From a virus, in IMG/VR virus record IMGVR_UViG_3300005436_000033, positions 1-26,240 of that record: DNA of 26,240 bases; one strand, 5' to 3'. Positions 1,987 to 25,705 of the stretch are shown in pieces. The translations under genes were made by a program, and so were the position numbers. Numbering within the stretch: position 1 is the first letter of the stretch; each line of letters begins with the position of its first letter. Below the pieces are notes generated by a model. The model saw only the letters and a list, made by a program, of their open reading frames with translations. It was not told the DNA's origin and made no database searches.

Positions 1987-4900
1987 ATGGGTCTCGGCAC
2001 CTTCCTTAGTGGAGCCATCCACGACGTCGCACATTACGGGGGCGATGTCGGTAGCTTCCTCAACCGTGACGTGGGTCGCCCCGTTATCGGGGCTGCGGAG
2101 AAGGTTCCTGGTCTCGGTACGGCGGTGCACGACACGGGGCGCGCGCTGACCAATCTAGCGCAGTGGGATAGGGACGCCTACACATGGGCAGTTTCTCGAC
2201 CGACATCTACCCTTGGTCTTGTTGGTATCAACATGAACAGCTGGGGTGACATGTTCAAGGGGAGCACCTGGTCTAAGTCCTGGGATGAGTCTTCTTACGT
2301 GTCCCCCGGCCAGTCGCTCATGGGTAACGTGGATGCGGTCTTCAATTTTGACGGGGACACCCGAAACGCGCGTCAGGAAGATCAGTACCTGCAAGGTGTT
2401 TTCTCGGATCCCAATTCTGTCGATACGTACTTCCACCACGGGTCGATGTTGGATAAGCTTGGTTCTGGTTCTTACGATGCGGGACTGGGTTGGTACTCTG
2501 ACCCATCTGTCCTCGTAGGCCACGGACTGAGTGGTATTCGTGCGGCTGCCCACAGCACCGCTGGTATCCAGACCGCCTCTGATGCTGCTAAGGCACTGTC
2601 TCGTAGCGCCACCCAGAAGATGCTTGACGCTACGGATAAGATGACGGCTTACCAGTCTAAGCGACTGCCGTTTATCTCCAAGTCTGCTAACCCAGATCTT
2701 CTGGCCAGCATCTTCAACCAGACGGTTGACCGTGGTCTCCGCGAAGCTGCTTATCGGTACATGACTTCTGACGGGCAAGATGCGATATCCCGTCAGGCGC
2801 TCCAGGATGCAGTTGAAGAGGCCAACCAGGCGGCTAAGACTCCGCTTGATTATGCGACAGCAGAAGACGCTCTGCGCACCCGGGCTAAGACCGGGTGGGG
2901 TTCTCTGTCAGATCAAGCCGGTGGCATCATGGAATCCATTGCCAACGCCCAGCAGAAGATCAATCCTCTGATCAAGCTTTCTCATGTAGAAGGGATGGCT
3001 GGAGGTCCCCAGGGTTGGAATACTCTTTCTGACGCGCTTCATGGCGCGGCAGATGATCTCCAGAAGAAGATTAATCTTCCAGGCACCCAGAACCGCTTGG
3101 CCCAGGACATCCTCAATATGAAGGGCCACATCACGTGGCAGCCTGGGCGATTTGATGTTCCGATCGCAAACATAAAGTCAGCCTTCCAGGGTGCGGATAA
3201 GTTTGGTGATATTAGTAAGATTGCTCCTCACATTCCGGGAGCCGACACTCTCCCGGGTCAGTGGGTCACCCAGGTTCTGTACAAGGGCCTGTACCAGACC
3301 CCCTTGAAGGTTCTCCGGGCTTTCGGGGATGCTTGGCCCGATGGGTGGATTGACTACACCAGTCCTCGTGCTGGTAACACCCTGGAGACCTTCCTGGCCC
3401 GAGCCAGGGGTATGGACTCTGCTACCCGACAGAGCTTCATCAACCAGTTCTATGAGGCTGGTAGTGATGTGGGTAAGCGACAGCAGGTCGTAGCTTCTGC
3501 TGAACACGCAGCAGGCAAGCTAACTCTGATGGCACGAGGCGCATCAGAAGAGGACGCCGACGCCATCCTTGATGGTACGTACCAGATGCGTAAGAACCGG
3601 ATGGACTTCACCTCCCAGAGGGCCAGTAGGCCGATGTCTCAGGCCTTCTCTGCTGCAAAGACTGCGGCAGGAACTCCGGCGGATGTCTTGGTGCACTCAC
3701 TGGACGATGAGGATGGTGTCCCGATTCATGTCCCCATTCTGGAGACGATGAAGAGGCAGGGCACTCCTCTGCTGGATCTCGACAAGCTCGACTCCTGGGC
3801 GAGCCGTAACATGGGCAAGTTCCAAACTCTGAAGAGTGCCTTCGGCACCTCCGCAGATGTGGTCTCCAATTCGGCTGATCTGTTCAACAGCATCTGGAAG
3901 AACGGTGTTCTTCTCCGGTTCGGCTTCACCCCTCGGGTGATGACGGACATGGGTCTCCGCGCCGTGTCCACTCTCGGTGCCGCCCGTGTCCTCGGGCTGG
4001 CACAGGAAGCGCAGAGTGTGGTTCTCCACAACCTCGGTGTGTCCGGCTCAGACCTTATCAACCGACTGTTGAAGAATCGCCTGTTTGCACCTGACACGAT
4101 CAAGTCTCTCAACGACCGAGCTGGTTTGGTCACGTCTGCACGCGATGCGGCTAAGTCAGATTACACAAACGCTCTCATGCAGCGAAAGATGGATGAGCAA
4201 GCTACTGCTGCTGGACTGCCTAGTCTGGCAGGTACTCCTAGCCAGGAGTATGTAGACGGTCTCAAGTCTCGTCTGGACTCTCTGGAGCAGAGCCTGGAGT
4301 TGGCTCAGTACGAAGCCAGTAAGTACCAGAAGACCCGGTTCGGTGACGGTGCCCGCCAGTACAAGGGTGTGACCCTCACAGACATCTACGGTGCAGAAAA
4401 CCGTGAATGGCTCTCCCAGCAGATGTCCTCTTCCCGAATGATCGGGAAGACCTTCCAACGTAACGCGGACATGGAATCCGGTCTTTCCGGGTCTGGTGCG
4501 TGGGATACTCTTCGTGCCGACAGTCAGAACGAGCTGGAGGCCGCTAGTCACCCGAAGGCGTGGAGACACGCCATCAACAACCAAATCCTTGGTGACACGC
4601 TTGGTGCCCAAATCGTTCGCAAGAACTGGAACGAAGACGACATCTACAAGTGGTTGAAAACTCCGCAGGGTAAGGCCTATCTGGAGAACATCCCTGGCAA
4701 CTTCAAGGGAGACCTTCAAGACTACGCCCACCGTGTGGCGTCGCACATCCACTACACGGTGCCTTCTGAGATTCGCCAGGAGATTAGCAACAAGAATCTC
4801 CGTGGTGTCAGCCAGAAAGACCTGGACCGCTTGGCTCCATCCATCAGTGACCGGCCAGATGTCAACGGACAGCTGTTGAACCTAAGCATGGGTAAGACAG

Positions 4901-6855
4901 ATGGTATTACGGGTGCCCTTCAGCACTGGCAGCACGCGATGCACAAGTATTTGGGTACTATGCCCCTGGACACCTTTGTGTACCACCCCACTGCCGCTGC
5001 GTACTACCGGGCCCACCTCCGTGAGTCTATCGACAAATACATCTCTTTCAACGGTCTTGAAGACGCCAAGACTCTTCAATGGACTCCTGGACTTCAGGCT
5101 CGTATCGAGAAGGAAGCTTTTACTCAGGCCAAGAATGATGTGTGGTCTATCATGTATGATACCACACAGACTTCTACTGCTGCTCACCAGTTGAGGTTCA
5201 TCTTCCCGTTCCTCAACGCGCAGCAGGAGATCCTGCGTCACTGGTTCAACATTGCGCTCGACCACCCGTACATCGTGGGACGGGAACAGCAGATCTGGAA
5301 CAGCCCCGCTAAGGCGGGACTGGTGTACGACAGCACGACGGGAGAGCAGGCTACCCCCGACACTCCGCTGGATAACCAGGTCATCCGGTTCCAGATTCCT
5401 CATGGGATCTCCAGTCTTCCTGGACTGGGTGCCTTGAACGACATGGGGCAGATGCAGATCTCTAAGGGGTCTATCAACCCGATTCTCCAGGGGCAGAACT
5501 TCTACATCCCTGGTGCGGGTCCGATAGTCCAGGTTGGTGTGCAGGCCCTTGCCAAGTTCAATCCGGGCGTTATGGACAACAGCAACCTGAAGCTCATCAT
5601 GCCGTATGGACCCGGCGACAACCTGATAGGGGCCATTCTCCCCTCTTGGGCGAATCGACTGGAGTCTGGTTTCAATGTGAACAGCTCACAGTATGCGTCT
5701 ACCTTCGCCAAGGTGTACCAGGCGGAGACGGTACGATACAACGAAGGCCTCAGAACATCTCCTCCTACTATGCAGGAGATGACGGATCGAACGAGGCAGC
5801 TCCTGCTCATGCAGGCGCTAGGGTCGGCTGTACTGCCGTTCTCAGCCGTGTTCAACCCCGGCACCCAGACAGGTGCTCAGAGGCCGCGAGCGTCCGTGAC
5901 AAGCGGTCTGGAAACGGCTTCCGCGCCGGACTTGTCTAAGGTGCCGATTCAGGGCCTCATCGACCAGTACAAGAAGTTGGAGTCTGTGGACCCTGCTCAT
6001 GCGGCCACGAACTTCTACAACAAGTATGGTCAGGCGCTGTTCGCACTTACCATGTCCACCACGAAGTCCAACGCCAGTGTTCCCGCCACTGCCGCCGGTT
6101 TGGCGGCAATCGAGAACCCCGACATTCGGGCTATGATCCAGGCTGACCCCAGCGTAGCTTACGCTATTGTAGGTCCTCAGGCTACACAAGGTTCGTTCGA
6201 CATGGCCGCGTACAACGCGGAGATGAATTCTCAGATCGGTGGAGGCCACTCTGAGAATTTCCGCCAGCGTCTTGATCCGGCGGACATGGTGAAGGAGCAG
6301 CAGGCTCAGCAGGGATGGCAGCAGTATGACCAGCTGACTTCTGTGCTGAACGCTAAACTGGCTGAACGAGGTCTCACTTCCTTGAACCAAGGAGGTGCTG
6401 AAGACCTTCGGACCATAAAGGCTCGGTTCCTGTACAACATGAATGACCCGAACAACCCGGATTACAATCCGGATTGGTACGAGCAGTATACAGGGGCTAG
6501 CACTGACTGGAATGCACGTATCCAGTCTCTGACCGCACTGGTGTCGGATGTGAATATCGTGAATAACCCGGCGCGTACGGACCTTAAGGTCTTAGGCCAG
6601 TATCTTGAAGGTCGGCAGGAGATCAACCAGTACCTGAGTTCCCGTCCGAATAAAGAAGGTCTTCCTTCCACTTTGGCCGACAGCTCAAACTCGGATCTCG
6701 CTTCCCAATGGGATGCCTTCGTGTCTCAGCTGGTAATGAGCAACACCAACTTTGCATTGATCTATCAGCATCTACTGGGAGGAGATCCGGTGAACTCGAA
6801 CCTTAAGAGTAACCAGTCCTTCCAGCAGTCTCTTAGCGGAATTGTGGGGCAGTAA
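1987..6855 (+). CDS. Giant virion protein, probably internal/ejection protein (1622 aa)
   Basis: At 1622 residues this is by far the largest product in the window. It begins at ATG 1987 with GGTAGG just upstream and ends by overlapping the next start (TAATG). It is mostly helical and Ala/Gln/Asp-rich, with no signal peptide. A Gly-rich amphipathic N-terminus (residues 1-60) and hydrophobic patches around residues 640-672 (LLRFGFTPRVMTDMGL) could contact membranes. Around residues 1061-1096 is a FPFLNAQQEILRHWF segment, a motif I associate with very large actinophage virion proteins. The C-terminal 300 residues are Gln/Asn-rich helices. Size, position before cell-wall-domain proteins, and absence of tail-tube genes suggest a podovirus-type internal protein ejected with the DNA. 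A long minor tail or head protein is the main alternative. Confidence 0.6.
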   Translation: MGLGTFLSGAIHDVAHYGGDVGSFLNRDVGRPVIGAAEKVPGLGTAVHDTGRALTNLAQWDRDAYTWAVSRPTSTLGLVGINMNSWGDMFKGSTWSKSWDESSYVSPGQSLMGNVDAVFNFDGDTRNARQEDQYLQGVFSDPNSVDTYFHHGSMLDKLGSGSYDAGLGWYSDPSVLVGHGLSGIRAAAHSTAGIQTASDAAKALSRSATQKMLDATDKMTAYQSKRLPFISKSANPDLLASIFNQTVDRGLREAAYRYMTSDGQDAISRQALQDAVEEANQAAKTPLDYATAEDALRTRAKTGWGSLSDQAGGIMESIANAQQKINPLIKLSHVEGMAGGPQGWNTLSDALHGAADDLQKKINLPGTQNRLAQDILNMKGHITWQPGRFDVPIANIKSAFQGADKFGDISKIAPHIPGADTLPGQWVTQVLYKGLYQTPLKVLRAFGDAWPDGWIDYTSPRAGNTLETFLARARGMDSATRQSFINQFYEAGSDVGKRQQVVASAEHAAGKLTLMARGASEEDADAILDGTYQMRKNRMDFTSQRASRPMSQAFSAAKTAAGTPADVLVHSLDDEDGVPIHVPILETMKRQGTPLLDLDKLDSWASRNMGKFQTLKSAFGTSADVVSNSADLFNSIWKNGVLLRFGFTPRVMTDMGLRAVSTLGAARVLGLAQEAQSVVLHNLGVSGSDLINRLLKNRLFAPDTIKSLNDRAGLVTSARDAAKSDYTNALMQRKMDEQATAAGLPSLAGTPSQEYVDGLKSRLDSLEQSLELAQYEASKYQKTRFGDGARQYKGVTLTDIYGAENREWLSQQMSSSRMIGKTFQRNADMESGLSGSGAWDTLRADSQNELEAASHPKAWRHAINNQILGDTLGAQIVRKNWNEDDIYKWLKTPQGKAYLENIPGNFKGDLQDYAHRVASHIHYTVPSEIRQEISNKNLRGVSQKDLDRLAPSISDRPDVNGQLLNLSMGKTDGITGALQHWQHAMHKYLGTMPLDTFVYHPTAAAYYRAHLRESIDKYISFNGLEDAKTLQWTPGLQARIEKEAFTQAKNDVWSIMYDTTQTSTAAHQLRFIFPFLNAQQEILRHWFNIALDHPYIVGREQQIWNSPAKAGLVYDSTTGEQATPDTPLDNQVIRFQIPHGISSLPGLGALNDMGQMQISKGSINPILQGQNFYIPGAGPIVQVGVQALAKFNPGVMDNSNLKLIMPYGPGDNLIGAILPSWANRLESGFNVNSSQYASTFAKVYQAETVRYNEGLRTSPPTMQEMTDRTRQLLLMQALGSAVLPFSAVFNPGTQTGAQRPRASVTSGLETASAPDLSKVPIQGLIDQYKKLESVDPAHAATNFYNKYGQALFALTMSTTKSNASVPATAAGLAAIENPDIRAMIQADPSVAYAIVGPQATQGSFDMAAYNAEMNSQIGGGHSENFRQRLDPADMVKEQQAQQGWQQYDQLTSVLNAKLAERGLTSLNQGGAEDLRTIKARFLYNMNDPNNPDYNPDWYEQYTGASTDWNARIQSLTALVSDVNIVNNPARTDLKVLGQYLEGRQEINQYLSSRPNKEGLPSTLADSSNSDLASQWDAFVSQLVMSNTNFALIYQHLLGGDPVNSNLKSNQSFQQSLSGIVGQ

Positions 6856-7931
6856 TGGCTACCGATCCCACTCCGACCTCATCGGCGACGTCTAACGCCG
6901 ATCTTCTCGCCGCAGCACAGGGGAGTAACGGCTCGCTCGTTACCGGGCCGTCTCTCCCTGTGAACGATATCTCTCAGCTCTCCGGGGCTATGAGTATGTA
7001 CCTCAGTGGTGGGGGAGAACCTGCTAACCCTCGGTACAACCCGAGGGGGCCGAACGCAGATGTTGGCAATGGCAACCCCTACCAGACAACTACGGTAGCG
7101 GACTGGCTGAACAAGTTCTACACCCAGATTGCCAGTAACTCCTCATCTCTCCAGCAGTTCTCCACGGAAGCCCAGCTTGCTGGGCTGGTTGGTGCGAATG
7201 CTAATATTGCACAGTTGTACTCCGCCTGGCAGAAGCTTATCGTGCAGGCGTACAACTACAATATCAACAAGCAGGACTTGACTCCGTGGGATGTGCTGGC
7301 GAACTCCATTCCTGGAGTGAGCGCGGGAACCTACAAGAACAACAACGGGTACTCGTTCATCACTGGGATGACCGCGCAGCAGGCAGCCTCAATTGCTTCC
7401 AAGGCAGCAGCCACCAGCAAGCAGTCTAGTTCGTCTCAGATCGATATCAACTATACTGATCCGGACACTGCTAGGTACGTCCTCAACCAGGCGTCTGAAC
7501 AGCTTCTTGGTCGGCAGGCTACCAACGATGAGATTGCAGCGTTCACCAAGAACCTGAACTCGAACGAGGCTAACTTCCCGAAGATGACCCAGGACATCAA
7601 GTCTTCGTCTGGGTCGTCTGTTACCACACCTGGTACTGGTACGTCCACCCTGGGAAGCCAGGGCCAAACTGTTGTGGGGTATGACGCCGCCGGTAACCCG
7701 ATCTATGGGCCCACGGGTGGGGGCTCTAGTACGAGTGCGACAGGGAACACCACCGATACGGTGGTGTCTTTGGGAGAACAGGACTACACCCGGTATGGCC
7801 GTGAGCAACTGGCACAGGACGCCGCTAAGGCGTCGCCAGACTACGGTGCTTACCAGGCCGCAGGGCCACTCTTCCAGGCCTTCCTAGGCGCTCTCAAGGG
7901 CGCTGTACCGGGTGTGGGGAGTAACCAGTAA
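6855..7931 (+). CDS. Putative internal virion protein with low-complexity linkers (358 aa)
   Basis: Translation starts at the ATG that shares a base with the stop of the giant gene, and ends the same way with the next gene, so it is part of one coupled series. Residues 1-80 are Ser/Gly/Asn-rich. Residues 85-160 form a probable helical unit (VADWLNKFYTQIA, AQLYSAWQKLIVQAY). A second unit at about 205-240 contains QASEQLLGRQATNDEIAAF, a pattern recurring in large phage virion proteins. Then come about 75 residues of Gly/Ser/Thr linker and a C-terminal helical part. No catalytic motif is seen. By context it is likely a minor or internal virion protein. Confidence 0.55.
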   Translation: MATDPTPTSSATSNADLLAAAQGSNGSLVTGPSLPVNDISQLSGAMSMYLSGGGEPANPRYNPRGPNADVGNGNPYQTTTVADWLNKFYTQIASNSSSLQQFSTEAQLAGLVGANANIAQLYSAWQKLIVQAYNYNINKQDLTPWDVLANSIPGVSAGTYKNNNGYSFITGMTAQQAASIASKAAATSKQSSSSQIDINYTDPDTARYVLNQASEQLLGRQATNDEIAAFTKNLNSNEANFPKMTQDIKSSSGSSVTTPGTGTSTLGSQGQTVVGYDAAGNPIYGPTGGGSSTSATGNTTDTVVSLGEQDYTRYGREQLAQDAAKASPDYGAYQAAGPLFQAFLGALKGAVPGVGSNQ

Positions 7932-8560
7932 TGGCCGATGAAGAGACTGCCTCAGCGGAGCTTCCAGAGCCGTCTGAGAACAACCCCGATCCGGAAGCCC
8001 TTCGCACTGCTGCGGTGCAGCAGCACCAGCAGACTTGGGCCAGCACTGATTGGATGCCGCAGAGGGAAGTCCACGGAGCCCACATCGTGTCCGACGCAGT
8101 TGACCAGATAGGTCAACCTTTCCTCTGGGGTGGCAACAAGCCTGGCGGCTTTGACAGCCAGGGACTTGCCAAGTATGCCTATCAGAACAACGGCATCCCG
8201 ATGAGCCACCTGTTGCACAACCAGCTACAGCACGGCGAGGCAGTTGAGCCGGGCCAGTTGCAGCCGGGAGACCTAGTGTTCGTGGCTACCGGTAGCCCTC
8301 AGGTGCCAGATCGTACCGGCATCTATGTGGGAGATGGTGTCATGGTGCACTCCTCCCCCAGTGCTGGTGTGGTGGCGAGTAGGATTTCCCACGTGGGACG
8401 TATTGTGAGTGCCACTCACTTACAGTCCGTGGTGAGGACTCCGACTAAGAAGCCTCAACCGATCCCGAAGGGATTGTACGAGACTGACGAGGTCATGCCT
8501 CACAACCGTATCTCACCTGCCCTGAAAGAATCCATCACCAATGTAGCGGGGGTGCACTAG
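7931..8560 (+). CDS. NlpC/P60-fold virion protein with lost catalytic residues (209 aa)
   Basis: Residues 50-165 follow the NlpC/P60 cysteine peptidase layout: a helix ending IGQPFLWGG, then GGFDSQGLAKYAY, then LQPGDLVFVATG, then DRTGIYVGDGVMVH. Active members read FDCSGL and HVGIY. Here the nucleophile position is Ser76 (AGC at 8156-8158) in a DSQG context, and the general-base His is Arg128 (CGT at 8312-8314). His140 of the VMVH strand remains. The fold is therefore probably kept while peptidase activity is lost, pointing to a binding or structural role in wall contact. The N-terminal 45 residues are acidic and the C-terminal 45 basic and extended. The gene is coupled to both neighbours (TAATG, TAGTG). 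Confidence 0.75.
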   Translation: MADEETASAELPEPSENNPDPEALRTAAVQQHQQTWASTDWMPQREVHGAHIVSDAVDQIGQPFLWGGNKPGGFDSQGLAKYAYQNNGIPMSHLLHNQLQHGEAVEPGQLQPGDLVFVATGSPQVPDRTGIYVGDGVMVHSSPSAGVVASRISHVGRIVSATHLQSVVRTPTKKPQPIPKGLYETDEVMPHNRISPALKESITNVAGVH

Positions 8561-9468
8561 TGGCTATCGACCTCAATCAGCCGTACTCTCCTACGAACAA
8601 CGGCAAACCCACCATTAACCCTCAGCAGTTGGCTGAGCAGTATGGGTGGGCGTACAGCTTCCTCACCTCTGTTCCAGAGCTGAACACGTTGTTTAAGCAG
8701 GCGGTGGCTGAAGGTTGGGACGCCACGAGGTTCCAGGCGGAGTTGCAGAACACCGAGTGGTTCAAAACCACTGCTGCCTCCGCTCGGGCCGCACAAGTAC
8801 AGAAGGTCATTGACCCCGCTACCTACTCACAGCAGGTGGCCAATGAGAGGGCCGTCATCTTGGAGCAGGCAGCCGCTGAAGGCGCTGCCATATCCAACTC
8901 CCTCGCTTCCACCATCGCTACCCAGCAAGTAACTTATGGCTGGGATGCGGCCCAGGTGAAGCAGGCCCTTTCTGGCTACATCAAGATGAATGCCAGTGGG
9001 TCGTTCGGTGGGCAGGCGGGACAGAACGCCATGGCGTTGAGTGAGCTCGCCTACAACAACGGGGTCACTCTTCCGCCCGGCACGTTGCAGAACCTGCTCC
9101 AGAACATTGCCGGGAACAAGTCCTCTCTGGAGGACGCTCAGGGGCTCATCCGCCAGATGGCGGTAAGCAAGTTCCCCGGTCTGGCAAAGCAGATCTCAGC
9201 TGGTGAGGATGTGTCTTCCTTGGCGCAGCCATACACCAGCACTATGCAGAACCTGCTGGAGACTGGCCCCGGTTCTGCCAACCTGGACAACCCGCTGGTG
9301 CAGAGAGCCCTCAATGGGCTCGACGCCTCTGGTCAGCCTACCGGTATGAACATGGTGGACTTCCAGAACCTTCTCCGGGCGCAGCCCGCATGGAGGCAGA
9401 CTCAGAACAGCCAGGATTCGGCTATGTCCGTGGCTAAGAACATTCTACAAACGTTTGGATTTAGCTGA
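8560..9468 (+). CDS. Putative internal virion protein, paralogue of the next gene (302 aa)
   Basis: The start is GTG at 8560, overlapping the TAG of the previous gene (TAGTG). Nearly the whole protein matches, in order and with few gaps, the C-terminal two thirds of the following 449-residue protein: PQQLAEQYGWAYSFL against PQELAQQFGFAYSML, GWDATRFQAELQNTEW against QWDATRFQAALMNTQW, SSLEDAQGLIRQMA against TSLEDAEGYLRKQA, and the endings ILQTFGFS against ILQSFGFSI. It is helical and Gln/Ala-rich with no catalytic motif. It probably arose by tandem duplication and assembles with its paralogue in the virion. The exact role is unknown. Confidence 0.65.
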   Translation: MAIDLNQPYSPTNNGKPTINPQQLAEQYGWAYSFLTSVPELNTLFKQAVAEGWDATRFQAELQNTEWFKTTAASARAAQVQKVIDPATYSQQVANERAVILEQAAAEGAAISNSLASTIATQQVTYGWDAAQVKQALSGYIKMNASGSFGGQAGQNAMALSELAYNNGVTLPPGTLQNLLQNIAGNKSSLEDAQGLIRQMAVSKFPGLAKQISAGEDVSSLAQPYTSTMQNLLETGPGSANLDNPLVQRALNGLDASGQPTGMNMVDFQNLLRAQPAWRQTQNSQDSAMSVAKNILQTFGFS

Positions 9469-10817
9469 TGGCGTGGTCTATTTTCTCTGACGGTGGTGGT
9501 AGCGGGGCAGCACGCACCTGGGCAGTGGAATTCCTCCAGGCTCTCGGTGCCCCAGTTACCTCTTCAAACATCGACTTCGTGTACCAATGGGAGGCCTCTG
9601 AAGGAGGCGGCGGTAAATACAACCCGCTGAACCAGGGAGATGTTCCTGGAAACAATTCTCTGACGAGCACTGGTAGTCAGTACGGGGGTGGAGCAGCTGA
9701 CTATGTTTCCTGGAACGCAGGAATTCAGGGTGCGGTTGACTATCTCCATATGTCCAACTACAAGGCGGTCCTGGCCGGGCTGATGGCCGGTAACGGGCAA
9801 CAGGCCATGAAGGCTTTGTGGGCCTCTCCCTGGGCCGCCAGCCACTACGGGTATGGGGCCAACTGGTCTTCCGATGCTGCTCCTGACACAGGCAGTGCAC
9901 TGCAAGGCCAGTCCGGACAGCTACAGCCGTATAGCCCCACGGGTAACACACAGGCTACTGTCAGCCCTCAGGAACTGGCCCAGCAGTTCGGCTTCGCCTA
10001 TTCCATGCTTCAGGCCATTCCGGAGCTGAAGAAACTTTTCAATGAGGCTGTCTCTGGGCAATGGGATGCAACGCGATTCCAAGCCGCGTTGATGAACACC
10101 CAGTGGTACAAGGATCACAGTGCCGCCCAGAGGGCGTGGGTTGCTGAAGGATATGCTGACCCTGCCACTCAGCAGGCTCAGCTGAAGTCTCAGATGGCTA
10201 CTGTGGAGGCAGCCGCCTCCGCACTGGGTGCGGTCCTCCCTCAGTCTGTCCTCAAGCAACTGACGCAGCAGTACCTGATGAACGGCTGGAACACTGACCA
10301 GCTTCAGCAGGCCATGTCTGGCTATATCCAGTTCGACGCAAACGGTGCGTTGGGTGGAACTTCCGGGCAGGAAGAGATGCAGCTTCGTGGGCTGGCCAAC
10401 AGCAACGGTGTGACCATCTCCAACAACTGGCTGTTGAACACTGCACGTGGCATCGCGGATGACACGACTTCCCTGGAGGACGCGGAGGGTTACCTCCGCA
10501 AGCAGGCGGAGAACTTGTTCCCCGAGTATGCCAAGCAGATTGCTGCTGGACAGAACATGTCCGATCTCGCGTCCTCGTACATGCAGGACTACCAGAAGAT
10601 TCTGGAAGTCGGCCCCGGGCAGTTGAACCTCTTCGACCCCACCTTGACCAAAGCCTTGCAGTACAAGGATCCCAGTGGGCAGAACGCTTCCATGCCGCTC
10701 TGGCAGTTCGACCAGACCTTGCGGAACGATCCGCGTTGGAAGCAAACACAGAACGCACAAGACAGTGTGATGGGCACCGCCCATTCCATTCTTCAAAGCT
10801 TCGGCTTCAGCATCTAG
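9468..10817 (+). CDS. Lysozyme-like domain fused to duplicated internal-protein domain (449 aa)
   Basis: Residues 15-130 resemble the lysozyme/glucosaminidase-like domain of phage virion proteins: a helix, then WEASEGGGGKYNPLNQG at 41-57, then DYVSWNAGIQGAVDYL and ALWASPWAASHYG. Glu42 or Glu45 is the likely catalytic acid, by analogy with W-x-x-x-E-G-G...NPL motifs. After a Ser/Gly/Pro linker at 135-165, residues 166-449 are homologous to the preceding 302-residue protein. In T7-type phages a virion transglycosylase locally opens peptidoglycan during DNA entry, and a similar role is inferred here. ATG 9468 overlaps the upstream TGA. This is the likeliest functional wall hydrolase of the virion, since the neighbouring NlpC/P60 domain lacks its catalytic residues. 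Confidence 0.7.
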   Translation: MAWSIFSDGGGSGAARTWAVEFLQALGAPVTSSNIDFVYQWEASEGGGGKYNPLNQGDVPGNNSLTSTGSQYGGGAADYVSWNAGIQGAVDYLHMSNYKAVLAGLMAGNGQQAMKALWASPWAASHYGYGANWSSDAAPDTGSALQGQSGQLQPYSPTGNTQATVSPQELAQQFGFAYSMLQAIPELKKLFNEAVSGQWDATRFQAALMNTQWYKDHSAAQRAWVAEGYADPATQQAQLKSQMATVEAAASALGAVLPQSVLKQLTQQYLMNGWNTDQLQQAMSGYIQFDANGALGGTSGQEEMQLRGLANSNGVTISNNWLLNTARGIADDTTSLEDAEGYLRKQAENLFPEYAKQIAAGQNMSDLASSYMQDYQKILEVGPGQLNLFDPTLTKALQYKDPSGQNASMPLWQFDQTLRNDPRWKQTQNAQDSVMGTAHSILQSFGFSI

Positions 10818-21471: not shown

Positions 21472-21727
21472 GTTCCGCTCTGAAAGTCGCTTCATGGACC
21501 CTCACAGGCCCGCCACGGGCCAAGCACGGCGCATCACTGCCTTCTTCGTGACGAACACCAACATCGAAGATGTGTACAACGAGGCACACAACGAGGGCTT
21601 CGACTTCACTTTGGATCGTGACGACGCTGTGCAGGGCCACCCCATCCAATCCCGTGTCGGAGCTTACCGCCGTGGCTTCCGACGCAGCGGGCCGGAAATC
21701 GGCGAAGGAAAGAATGTGAACGGTTAA
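21464..21727 (+). CDS. Hypothetical basic small protein, GTG start (87 aa)
   Basis: The start is GTG 21464 within GTGAGTAG, overlapping the stop of the membrane protein; ATG 21494 is the alternative, shorter start. The 87-residue product has a basic N-terminus (SRFRSESRFMDPHRPATGQARR), a middle that looks like a small alpha/beta unit (ITAFFVTNTNIEDVYNEAHNEGFDFTL), and a basic end (GAYRRGFRRSGPEIGEGKNVNG). No family is recognised. It is coupled to both the membrane-protein gene and the lysin gene (TTAATGA). Confidence 0.6.
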   Translation: MSRFRSESRFMDPHRPATGQARRITAFFVTNTNIEDVYNEAHNEGFDFTLDRDDAVQGHPIQSRVGAYRRGFRRSGPEIGEGKNVNG

Positions 21728-22398
21728 TGACTCGTACCATGTACGACGCCATCAACGTAAACAGTCTCCCCGCGGGGGGTGATCTGTATGCGGGATATGT
21801 GGATGGCCACTGGCCGGACTACTCAGCCATTGCCAGCAAGTTTGGCAAGGACAACACGGTGGGGATCGCTACCAACCCGAATGACGACAACGGGACCATC
21901 GGTGATGGACCGCCGGACAACGGCACGTGGCCTGAGTGGGTCGCCTGGACGGTCCGCAGGCGGGCCGCAGGGGTTGACCCTACCATCAACACCAACGTGT
22001 CCAACTGGGACGCTGGTAAGGCCGCCTACGCCTCCGCCAAGGTGGCGGAGCCTCACTGGTGGATCGCGCACTACGACAACGATCCGACTATCCCGGCTGG
22101 CGCCGTAGCCAAGCAGTACGCCAGCAACAACCTGTACGACACCTCCAGTGTCGCTGACTACTGGCCGGGCGTGGACCCGGTTCCTACCCCGCCTCCCGTC
22201 ACTACTTCCGAAGAGGATGACATGCGTCTTATCCAGTCCCCCGCCGGTATCTGGCTGCTCTCCGGCAACCTGTACGTGCACATCGACAACACCTCCGCTG
22301 TGAACAGCTTCACGGACGCTGGTGTGCAGACCGTCCATGTGGACGCTGCGGAGCACGCCCTTCTGGTGGCCGCGTCCTCCACTCCGAACGCTACCTGA
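21727..22398 (+). CDS. GH25-like / DUF1906-like endolysin candidate (223 aa)
   Basis: ATG 21727 shares a base with the previous TAA. Residues 5-150 resemble the glycoside-hydrolase-like lysin of many actinophages: MYDAINVNSLP, YAGYVDGHWPDYSAIASKF, VGIATNPND, WVAWTVRRRAAGVDPTINTN, HWWIAHYDNDPTIPAGAVAKQY and SVADYWPGVDP. This is the outline of a TIM-barrel muramidase. Instead of the usual acidic Asp-x-Glu strand the centre reads GTIGDGPPDNG (residues 56-66), so the catalytic acids are unclear. A Pro-rich linker (151-160) leads to a 60-residue C-terminal domain, probably for wall binding. The holin follows 10 bases later, supporting the lysis role. Confidence 0.7.
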   Translation: MTRTMYDAINVNSLPAGGDLYAGYVDGHWPDYSAIASKFGKDNTVGIATNPNDDNGTIGDGPPDNGTWPEWVAWTVRRRAAGVDPTINTNVSNWDAGKAAYASAKVAEPHWWIAHYDNDPTIPAGAVAKQYASNNLYDTSSVADYWPGVDPVPTPPPVTTSEEDDMRLIQSPAGIWLLSGNLYVHIDNTSAVNSFTDAGVQTVHVDAAEHALLVAASSTPNAT

Positions 22399-25564: not shown

Positions 25565-25630
25565 AAGCGGCCCACAGACTCAACTTGCGTCCAAGCAATA
25601 CCTGTGAGGAACGTTAGATCAGCCGCTTCG
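25563..25630 (-). repeat. 9-bp inverted repeat joining the tRNA and the cloverleaf
   Basis: CGAAGCGGC at 25563-25571 is the exact reverse complement of GCCGCTTCG at 25622-25630, with 50 bases between. On the transcript this stem starts directly at the 3' end of the tRNA(Met) and ends at the foot of the cloverleaf. The loop includes a small hairpin, CTTG-GACG-CAAG (25584-25595). It may guide tRNA end processing or separate the two RNAs. No reading frame of note lies here. Confidence 0.6.
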
Positions 25631-25705
25631 TAGCGGAGGCAGGATTTGAACCTGCGATCTCTGGATTATGAGCCCAGCGGGGACTCCGAACTCCCCTACT
25701 CCGCG
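25631..25705 (-). tRNA. tRNA-Met(CAU), initiator-like
   Basis: On the minus strand this 75-base sequence folds as a tRNA: acceptor CGCGGAG/CTCCGCT, D-stem GGGG/CCCC, anticodon stem CTGGG/TCCAG with loop CTCATAA (anticodon CAU), variable AGATC, T-arm GCAGG-TTCAAAT-CCTGC, discriminator A. Several features match initiator rather than elongator tRNA: no Watson-Crick pair at 1-72 (C against U), purine-pyrimidine at 11-24 (G-C), and three consecutive G residues at 29-31 facing U39-C40-C41. The T-arm and the CTGGGCTCATAA segment are very close to bacterial tRNA(fMet). CCA is not encoded (CGA follows). The D-loop lacks the usual A21. Confidence 0.88.

Follow-up and report, generated by a model that had tools for sequence, protein, structure and literature searches.

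Loss of the catalytic Cys and His of an NlpC/P60 domain throughout a small clade of soil phages with short-tailed Streptomyces viruses as relatives

When an NlpC/P60 domain encoded among the structural genes of a phage carries neither catalytic residue, does it still cut the cell wall, and if not, what may it be kept for? The question is raised by a 209-aa protein encoded in the window (the whole stretch of 26,240 nt that was analysed, from IMG/VR record IMGVR_UViG_3300005436_000033). The initial annotation had read Ser76 and Arg128 in place of the catalytic Cys and His and proposed a pseudo-enzyme kept for binding peptidoglycan stem peptides or for virion structure, dividing the labour with a lysozyme-like enzyme encoded shortly downstream. 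The protein matches the Pfam family NLPC_P60 (PF00877) at 4.8e-18, scoring 65.5 bits where the family cut-off is 23. Its gene shares 1 base with the stop of the preceding gene and 1 base with the start of the next one, overlaps that mark a coupled operon. The features of the gene and its protein are as follows.

7931..8560, plus strand: pseudo-NlpC/P60 gene, 209 aa (open reading frame list and sequence)
7931..8065, plus strand: N-terminal extension, residues 1-45, under weaker constraint (pN/pS 0.45-0.61)
8066..8422, plus strand: NlpC/P60-fold core, residues 46-164 (Pfam match 61-154), from Pfam, alignment, AlphaFold2 model and superposition
8120..8122, plus strand: Phe64 in the conserved Tyr column (62/62 relatives have Tyr, the 5 other clade members His), from the alignment
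8156..8158, plus strand: Ser76 in the catalytic Cys column (Cys in 62/62 related phage domains), from the alignment
8159..8161, plus strand: Gln77 in place of the DCSG-motif Ser that 62/62 relatives have, a position equivalent to the substrate contact S384 of RipA, from the alignment and a published contact list (PMC6628586)
8312..8314, plus strand: Arg128 in the catalytic His column (His in 62/62 related phage domains), from the alignment
8348..8350, plus strand: His140, the third triad residue, kept in all clade members, from the alignment
8441..8557, plus strand: C-terminal tail, residues 171-209, conserved (pN/pS 0.18-0.42)

The active site and its fixation in the clade

The gene defines a small clade of phages from soil, whose relatives are short-tailed Streptomyces viruses and of which six full-length sequences are known. 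Besides that of the window, scans of IMG/VR returned full-length copies on five contigs (L001, L002, L003, L011 and L012) at 65-76% identity, together with two cut contigs (L004/L016 and L005) that also carry the gene and agree wherever they are readable.

Related phages were gathered via the major capsid protein and the phrog_6654 domain, and the 62 other distinct NlpC domains of the alignment all keep the catalytic Cys, the Ser that follows it, Tyr64, Arg93 and the base His (62/62). Comparison with these domains confirms both replacements read by the initial annotation, and the losses go beyond the two it had listed: the whole of this strictly conserved active-site set (Y64, C76, S77, R93 and H128) is rewritten in the clade, position 77 being Gly in L012 instead of Gln, and not one Cys is present in any of the six full-length clade proteins. 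From its spacing to the catalytic Cys, we take Tyr64 to be the counterpart of the active-site Tyr of E. coli Spr. Measured by what characterizes a C40 enzyme, the catalytic Cys of the D-C-S-G motif is replaced by Ser76 and the base His by Arg128, and the third polar residue (His or Glu) is present as His140 in 6/6 sequences. The clade retains the scaffold residues G61, W66, G67, D75, G78, G88, G102, G113, D114, Y132, G134 and G136, and by the alignment the residues retained are those that hold the fold and the residues rewritten those that line the active site. A metal site formed by extra histidines was considered and rejected, since position 64 has Phe in the window, position 93 has Gln in L012, and a His at 93 is also common in RipA/RipC-type enzymes.

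Ser76, Arg128 and His140 occur in 6/6 full-length clade members and in the readable parts of the fragments. Across the NlpC region pN/pS is 0.17-0.29 with synonymous sites close to saturation, and between the similar sequences of L002 and L003 dS is 0.33 and dN 0.007, values that show strong purifying selection on the domain. The initial annotation had named relatives with Cys/His, together with a sequencing error, as one way its reading might fail. Because the same Ser and Arg recur in independently assembled contigs of such divergence, and because pN/pS is this low, we regard a sequencing error or a decaying gene as excluded for all practical purposes.

Outside the clade, the catalytic Cys and His are intact in all nine phages of wider, unrelated groups and in 80/80 bacterial loci, and a clade-motif scan of genome contigs for bacterial relatives with the Ser/Arg form came up empty. 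In the tree the clade is monophyletic (support 100/100) and sits on a stem of 1.8-3.0 changes per site with short internal branches, as would be expected for a shift of function in which a burst of change was followed by a new constraint. A first tree favoured capture of a RipC-like domain from the host (97/90), a signal that was lost when more bacterial rows were added; tests of a phage-peptidase versus a host RipC-like origin gave p-AU values of 0.45 and 0.30 and rejected neither, and the NlpC domain could descend from either source.

Might the protein nonetheless be an enzyme, with Ser76 or another residue acting as the nucleophile together with His140? The invariance of Ser76 in the six sequences and the retention of His140 would suit such a mechanism, but Arg takes the place of the base His throughout, the conserved Tyr is missing, and Gln or Gly follows the nucleophile position instead of Ser. 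We know of no active NlpC/P60 protein with a Ser-Arg pair and the Tyr and Ser of this set lost, and consider residual catalysis very improbable. Since the nucleophile, the base and the Tyr are gone, no Cys is left, and this state is fixed in the clade under purifying selection, the reading of the protein as a pseudoenzyme, so far as sequences can tell, is well supported.

Fold, inactive precedents and the substrate cleft

The structure prediction and superposition proposed in the initial annotation bear out the papain-like NlpC/P60 fold. The AlphaFold2 model, built from 68 sequences, has a pLDDT of >90 across most of the NlpC core and superposes on structures of active NlpC/P60 peptidases with Z ~18 at 1.6-2.1 Å over 114-125 residues. 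The solved sequence closest to the clade profile is that of Mycobacterium tuberculosis RipC (PDB 8IDC; 4e-20, 44% identity across the aligned core), which has a Cys-His-His triad and is active. On the strength of the superposition and of the profile and sequence matches, the domain belongs to NlpC/P60 by predicted fold and by sequence, yet it lacks what makes such a domain an enzyme.

Inactive NlpC/P60 domains are already known, and the closest precedent is mycobacterial RipD (Rv1566c, PDB 4JXB), which has an NCBIfam model of its own (NF033743, NlpC_inact_RipD). RipD and the window protein share the NlpC/P60 fold and the replacement of both nucleophile and base, the loss of catalytic Cys and His that typifies RipD. 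They differ in that RipD carries Ala83-Ser132-Glu144 and is a secreted bacterial protein that binds peptidoglycan, whereas the window protein carries Ser-Arg-His and belongs to a phage; NF033743 scores the latter at 44.1 bits against a cut-off of 215, which places it outside the RipD family. An NlpC/P60 domain is also found in a phage-tail-like particle, the diffocin, whose hub-hydrolase (PDB 8V3W) superposes on the model with Z 17.2; that domain, however, retains DCSG and the His and lies within a long hub protein of the baseplate. Wall-peptidase folds that are dead and maintained for protein contacts are likewise on record in the degenerate LytM domains of EnvC and NlpD (PMC9662197), which share the principle and not the fold, the M23 zinc fold being unrelated. 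In the literature searched, coverage of which was partial, we found no description of an inactive NlpC/P60 domain fixed in a phage virion module.

Like RipD, an accepted non-catalytic peptidoglycan-binding NlpC/P60 protein (PMC12067865), the window protein might hold a wall peptide in its dead cleft and so fix the particle to the wall. Superposition of the model with RipD gives Z 15.2, and His140 is retained, as is Asp75, the counterpart of the RipA residue D382 that contacts gamma-D-Glu (PMC6628586). RipA is reported to contact its substrate through D382, S384, S402, V428, Q431 and D447 (PMC6628586), and two of the contacts mapped are lost in the clade, S384 having become Gln77 or Gly and S402, mapped by gap-free offset from the Cys, Leu or Ile95. 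These losses weaken the case for stem-peptide binding, Tyr64 and Arg93 are replaced too, and our searches found nothing for RipD-type binding through so rewritten a cleft. Of the two halves of the original proposal, the pseudo-enzyme thus stands and stem-peptide binding is not supported; we consider a RipD-like anchor rather unlikely.

The tails bear on a different kind of contact. Residues 190-209 of the C-terminal tail are predicted by the AlphaFold2 model to be disordered when the protein is alone, and since the tail is conserved despite the predicted disorder of this part, its character would fit binding to a partner.

Gene order, phrog_6654 and the wall enzymes

The neighbours of the gene are encoded as follows.

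1987..6855, plus strand: large protein, 1622 aa, phrog_10618, in the same order as in Beephvirinae
6855..7931, plus strand: phrog_13037 protein, 358 aa, encoded upstream in the operon of the pseudo-NlpC gene
8560..9468, plus strand: phrog_6654 helical domain as a protein of its own, 302 aa; in Beephvirinae-like phages this domain follows the active NlpC within one fused protein
9468..10817, plus strand: 449-aa protein with an N-terminal domain (9468-9926) and another phrog_6654 domain (9963-10814), in the position that the SLT 'glycosylase' has in Beephvirinae

Among isolated phages the nearest are the Beephvirinae, Streptomyces podoviruses, the major capsid protein of the window being ~60% identical to that of Manuel; Abafar, a member of this group, is a podovirus with a 16-nm tail (PMC11536984). 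Beephvirinae genes run from the large protein through a 'hypothetical', a 'peptidase' and a 'glycosylase' to a phrog_8424 protein, the peptidase being an intact NlpC fused to phrog_6654 and the glycosylase an SLT domain joined to another copy of phrog_6654. The window encodes the NlpC-like protein and the phrog_6654 protein in separate genes that overlap by 1 base, and the 9468-10817 protein with its own phrog_6654 domain comes next. The locus matches that of the active peptidase-phrog_6654 fusion: in Immanuel3, Manuel and FlowerPower, the protein annotated as 'peptidase' or minor tail protein lies, like the window protein, between the gene block of a large ~1600-aa protein and the glycosylase-phrog_6654 gene, and has the same NlpC/P60 fold and the same link to phrog_6654. 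Theirs, however, is fused and keeps Cys-His-His intact, whereas the window protein is a separate 209-aa subunit with neither Cys nor base His.

By its major capsid protein and the gene order of its structural block, the window belongs to a wider Beephvirinae-like group; it falls outside Beephvirinae sensu stricto, which combine a tRNA cluster with the NlpC-phrog_6654 fusion, as its genes are split and the window and G001 hold at most one tRNA and G002 none. The window has a lone tRNA-Met (25630-25705) near the DNA polymerase gene, whereas in Beephvirinae 15 to 22 tRNA genes are clustered between the capsid genes and the phrog_8424 gene.

The phrog_6654 domain, which occurs twice per genome in these phages, is confidently predicted to be all-helical over ~285 residues (pLDDT mostly >90). 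A fold search returned phage relatives only in BFVD and no significant match in the PDB, for a model queried whole (449 residues), so that a domain match may be missed; the prediction is possibly that of an undescribed virion fold. Synteny suggested that the separate genes arose by fission of a fused active enzyme, a route not supported by the phrog_6654 tree, where the two copies of the window are sisters (100/99; alternative topology at p-AU 0.28, not rejected). The split arrangement also exists with an intact peptidase in the distant phages L134, L149 and L153, which have one copy of phrog_6654 each, the catalytically intact NlpC lying apart from it at the end of the gene before. The L153 protein, judged by eye, has an SLT-like N-terminus too. 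In the IMG/VR copy of Streptomyces phage JXY1 (L164:5591-6894), the NlpC-phrog_6654 gene is read as two overlapping frames of 110 aa and 350 aa, by either a frameshift or an assembly error.

The proposed division of labour between a binder and a cutter found no confirmation. The gene at 8560-9468 stands between the pseudo-NlpC gene and the supposed lysozyme-like fusion, and the N-terminal domain of the 9468-10817 protein has no lysozyme or SLT match and no reliable match of any kind in Pfam, PHROGs, NCBIfam, the PDB or phage records. Profile comparison with its positional counterpart, the Beephvirinae SLT domain, produced no alignment, and a single PDB match to an alcohol oxidase (0.003) was judged to be chance. 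The first 153 residues (9468-9926) are strongly conserved in the clade, with the motif QWExSEGGGGxxNPLNQ and invariant E42 and E45, and stand in the place of the SLT domain; the protein may be an enzyme.

This neighbour bears on a further reading, in which the window protein would regulate or activate a nearby wall enzyme, as the degenerate LytM (M23) proteins EnvC and NlpD act on amidases through a dead groove. Tight coupling to phrog_6654 proteins in one operon would suit such a role, as would the N-terminal domain that one of them has in place of the Beephvirinae glycosylase, and dead-groove activation is documented for M23 folds (PMC9662197). As the searches returned no enzyme match for that domain, we consider an activator improbable.

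Wall enzymes elsewhere in the genomes differ as well. The two 44-kb records of the clade each carry one NlpC/P60 domain, the inactive one, and a GH25 endolysin, and neither has a CHAP, M23 or Amidase_2 domain. At the place of their clear GH25 endolysin, the window encodes a 223-aa protein (21727-22398) whose GH25-like match is weak and below threshold; it may be a divergent or partial endolysin. Immanuel3, Manuel and FlowerPower have no GH25; they encode the active NlpC/P60 together with an Amidase_2-type match, which exceeds the cut-off in two of these phages. From its absence in the two 44-kb records, we provisionally regard the clade as having no recognisable peptide-cutting enzyme, a pattern that would be consistent with a shift to glycan cutting having made peptidase activity dispensable.

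A probable non-catalytic role in the virion

A part in virion structure, the other half of the original proposal, is made plausible by the position of the gene, by the annotation of its homologues as 'minor tail protein' or 'peptidase' and by the conserved tails. We consider it probable that the protein is a non-catalytic part of the virion, serving as a structural element or adaptor. In the ancestor of the clade, a peptidase of NlpC/P60 fold encoded in the head/tail-injection block of a podovirus-type phage would have lost the nucleophile, the general base and the conserved Tyr, and it would since have been maintained as a non-catalytic subunit under purifying selection. Together with its N- and C-terminal tails, the fold would pack on partner virion proteins, the likeliest of them being the adjacent, co-translated phrog_6654 helical proteins, and wall breaching and lysis would be left to glycan-cutting or unidentified enzymes. 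We infer that the protein is present in the virion, contacts phrog_6654 and has no activity at all. Evidence against a structural subunit is found in the retention of His140, Asp75 and a recognisable cleft, which could reflect ligand binding, and a role outside the virion would also be compatible with the data.

More tentatively, a peptidase of the entry apparatus may have become a non-enzymatic part whose pocket was rebuilt for a new ligand, either a host-surface molecule or a virion partner, while the recognisable wall enzymes turned from peptide-directed (NlpC/P60 and Amidase_2) to glycan-directed (GH25); we rate this combined scenario as possible, although doubtful.

NlpC/P60 domains of phage particles are routinely annotated as peptidases, and the clade shows that this label can be wrong. 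With an active fused enzyme in some phages and a fixed inactive separate subunit in others, this one locus offers a natural comparison for asking whether NlpC/P60 domains are present in virions for cutting or for architecture.
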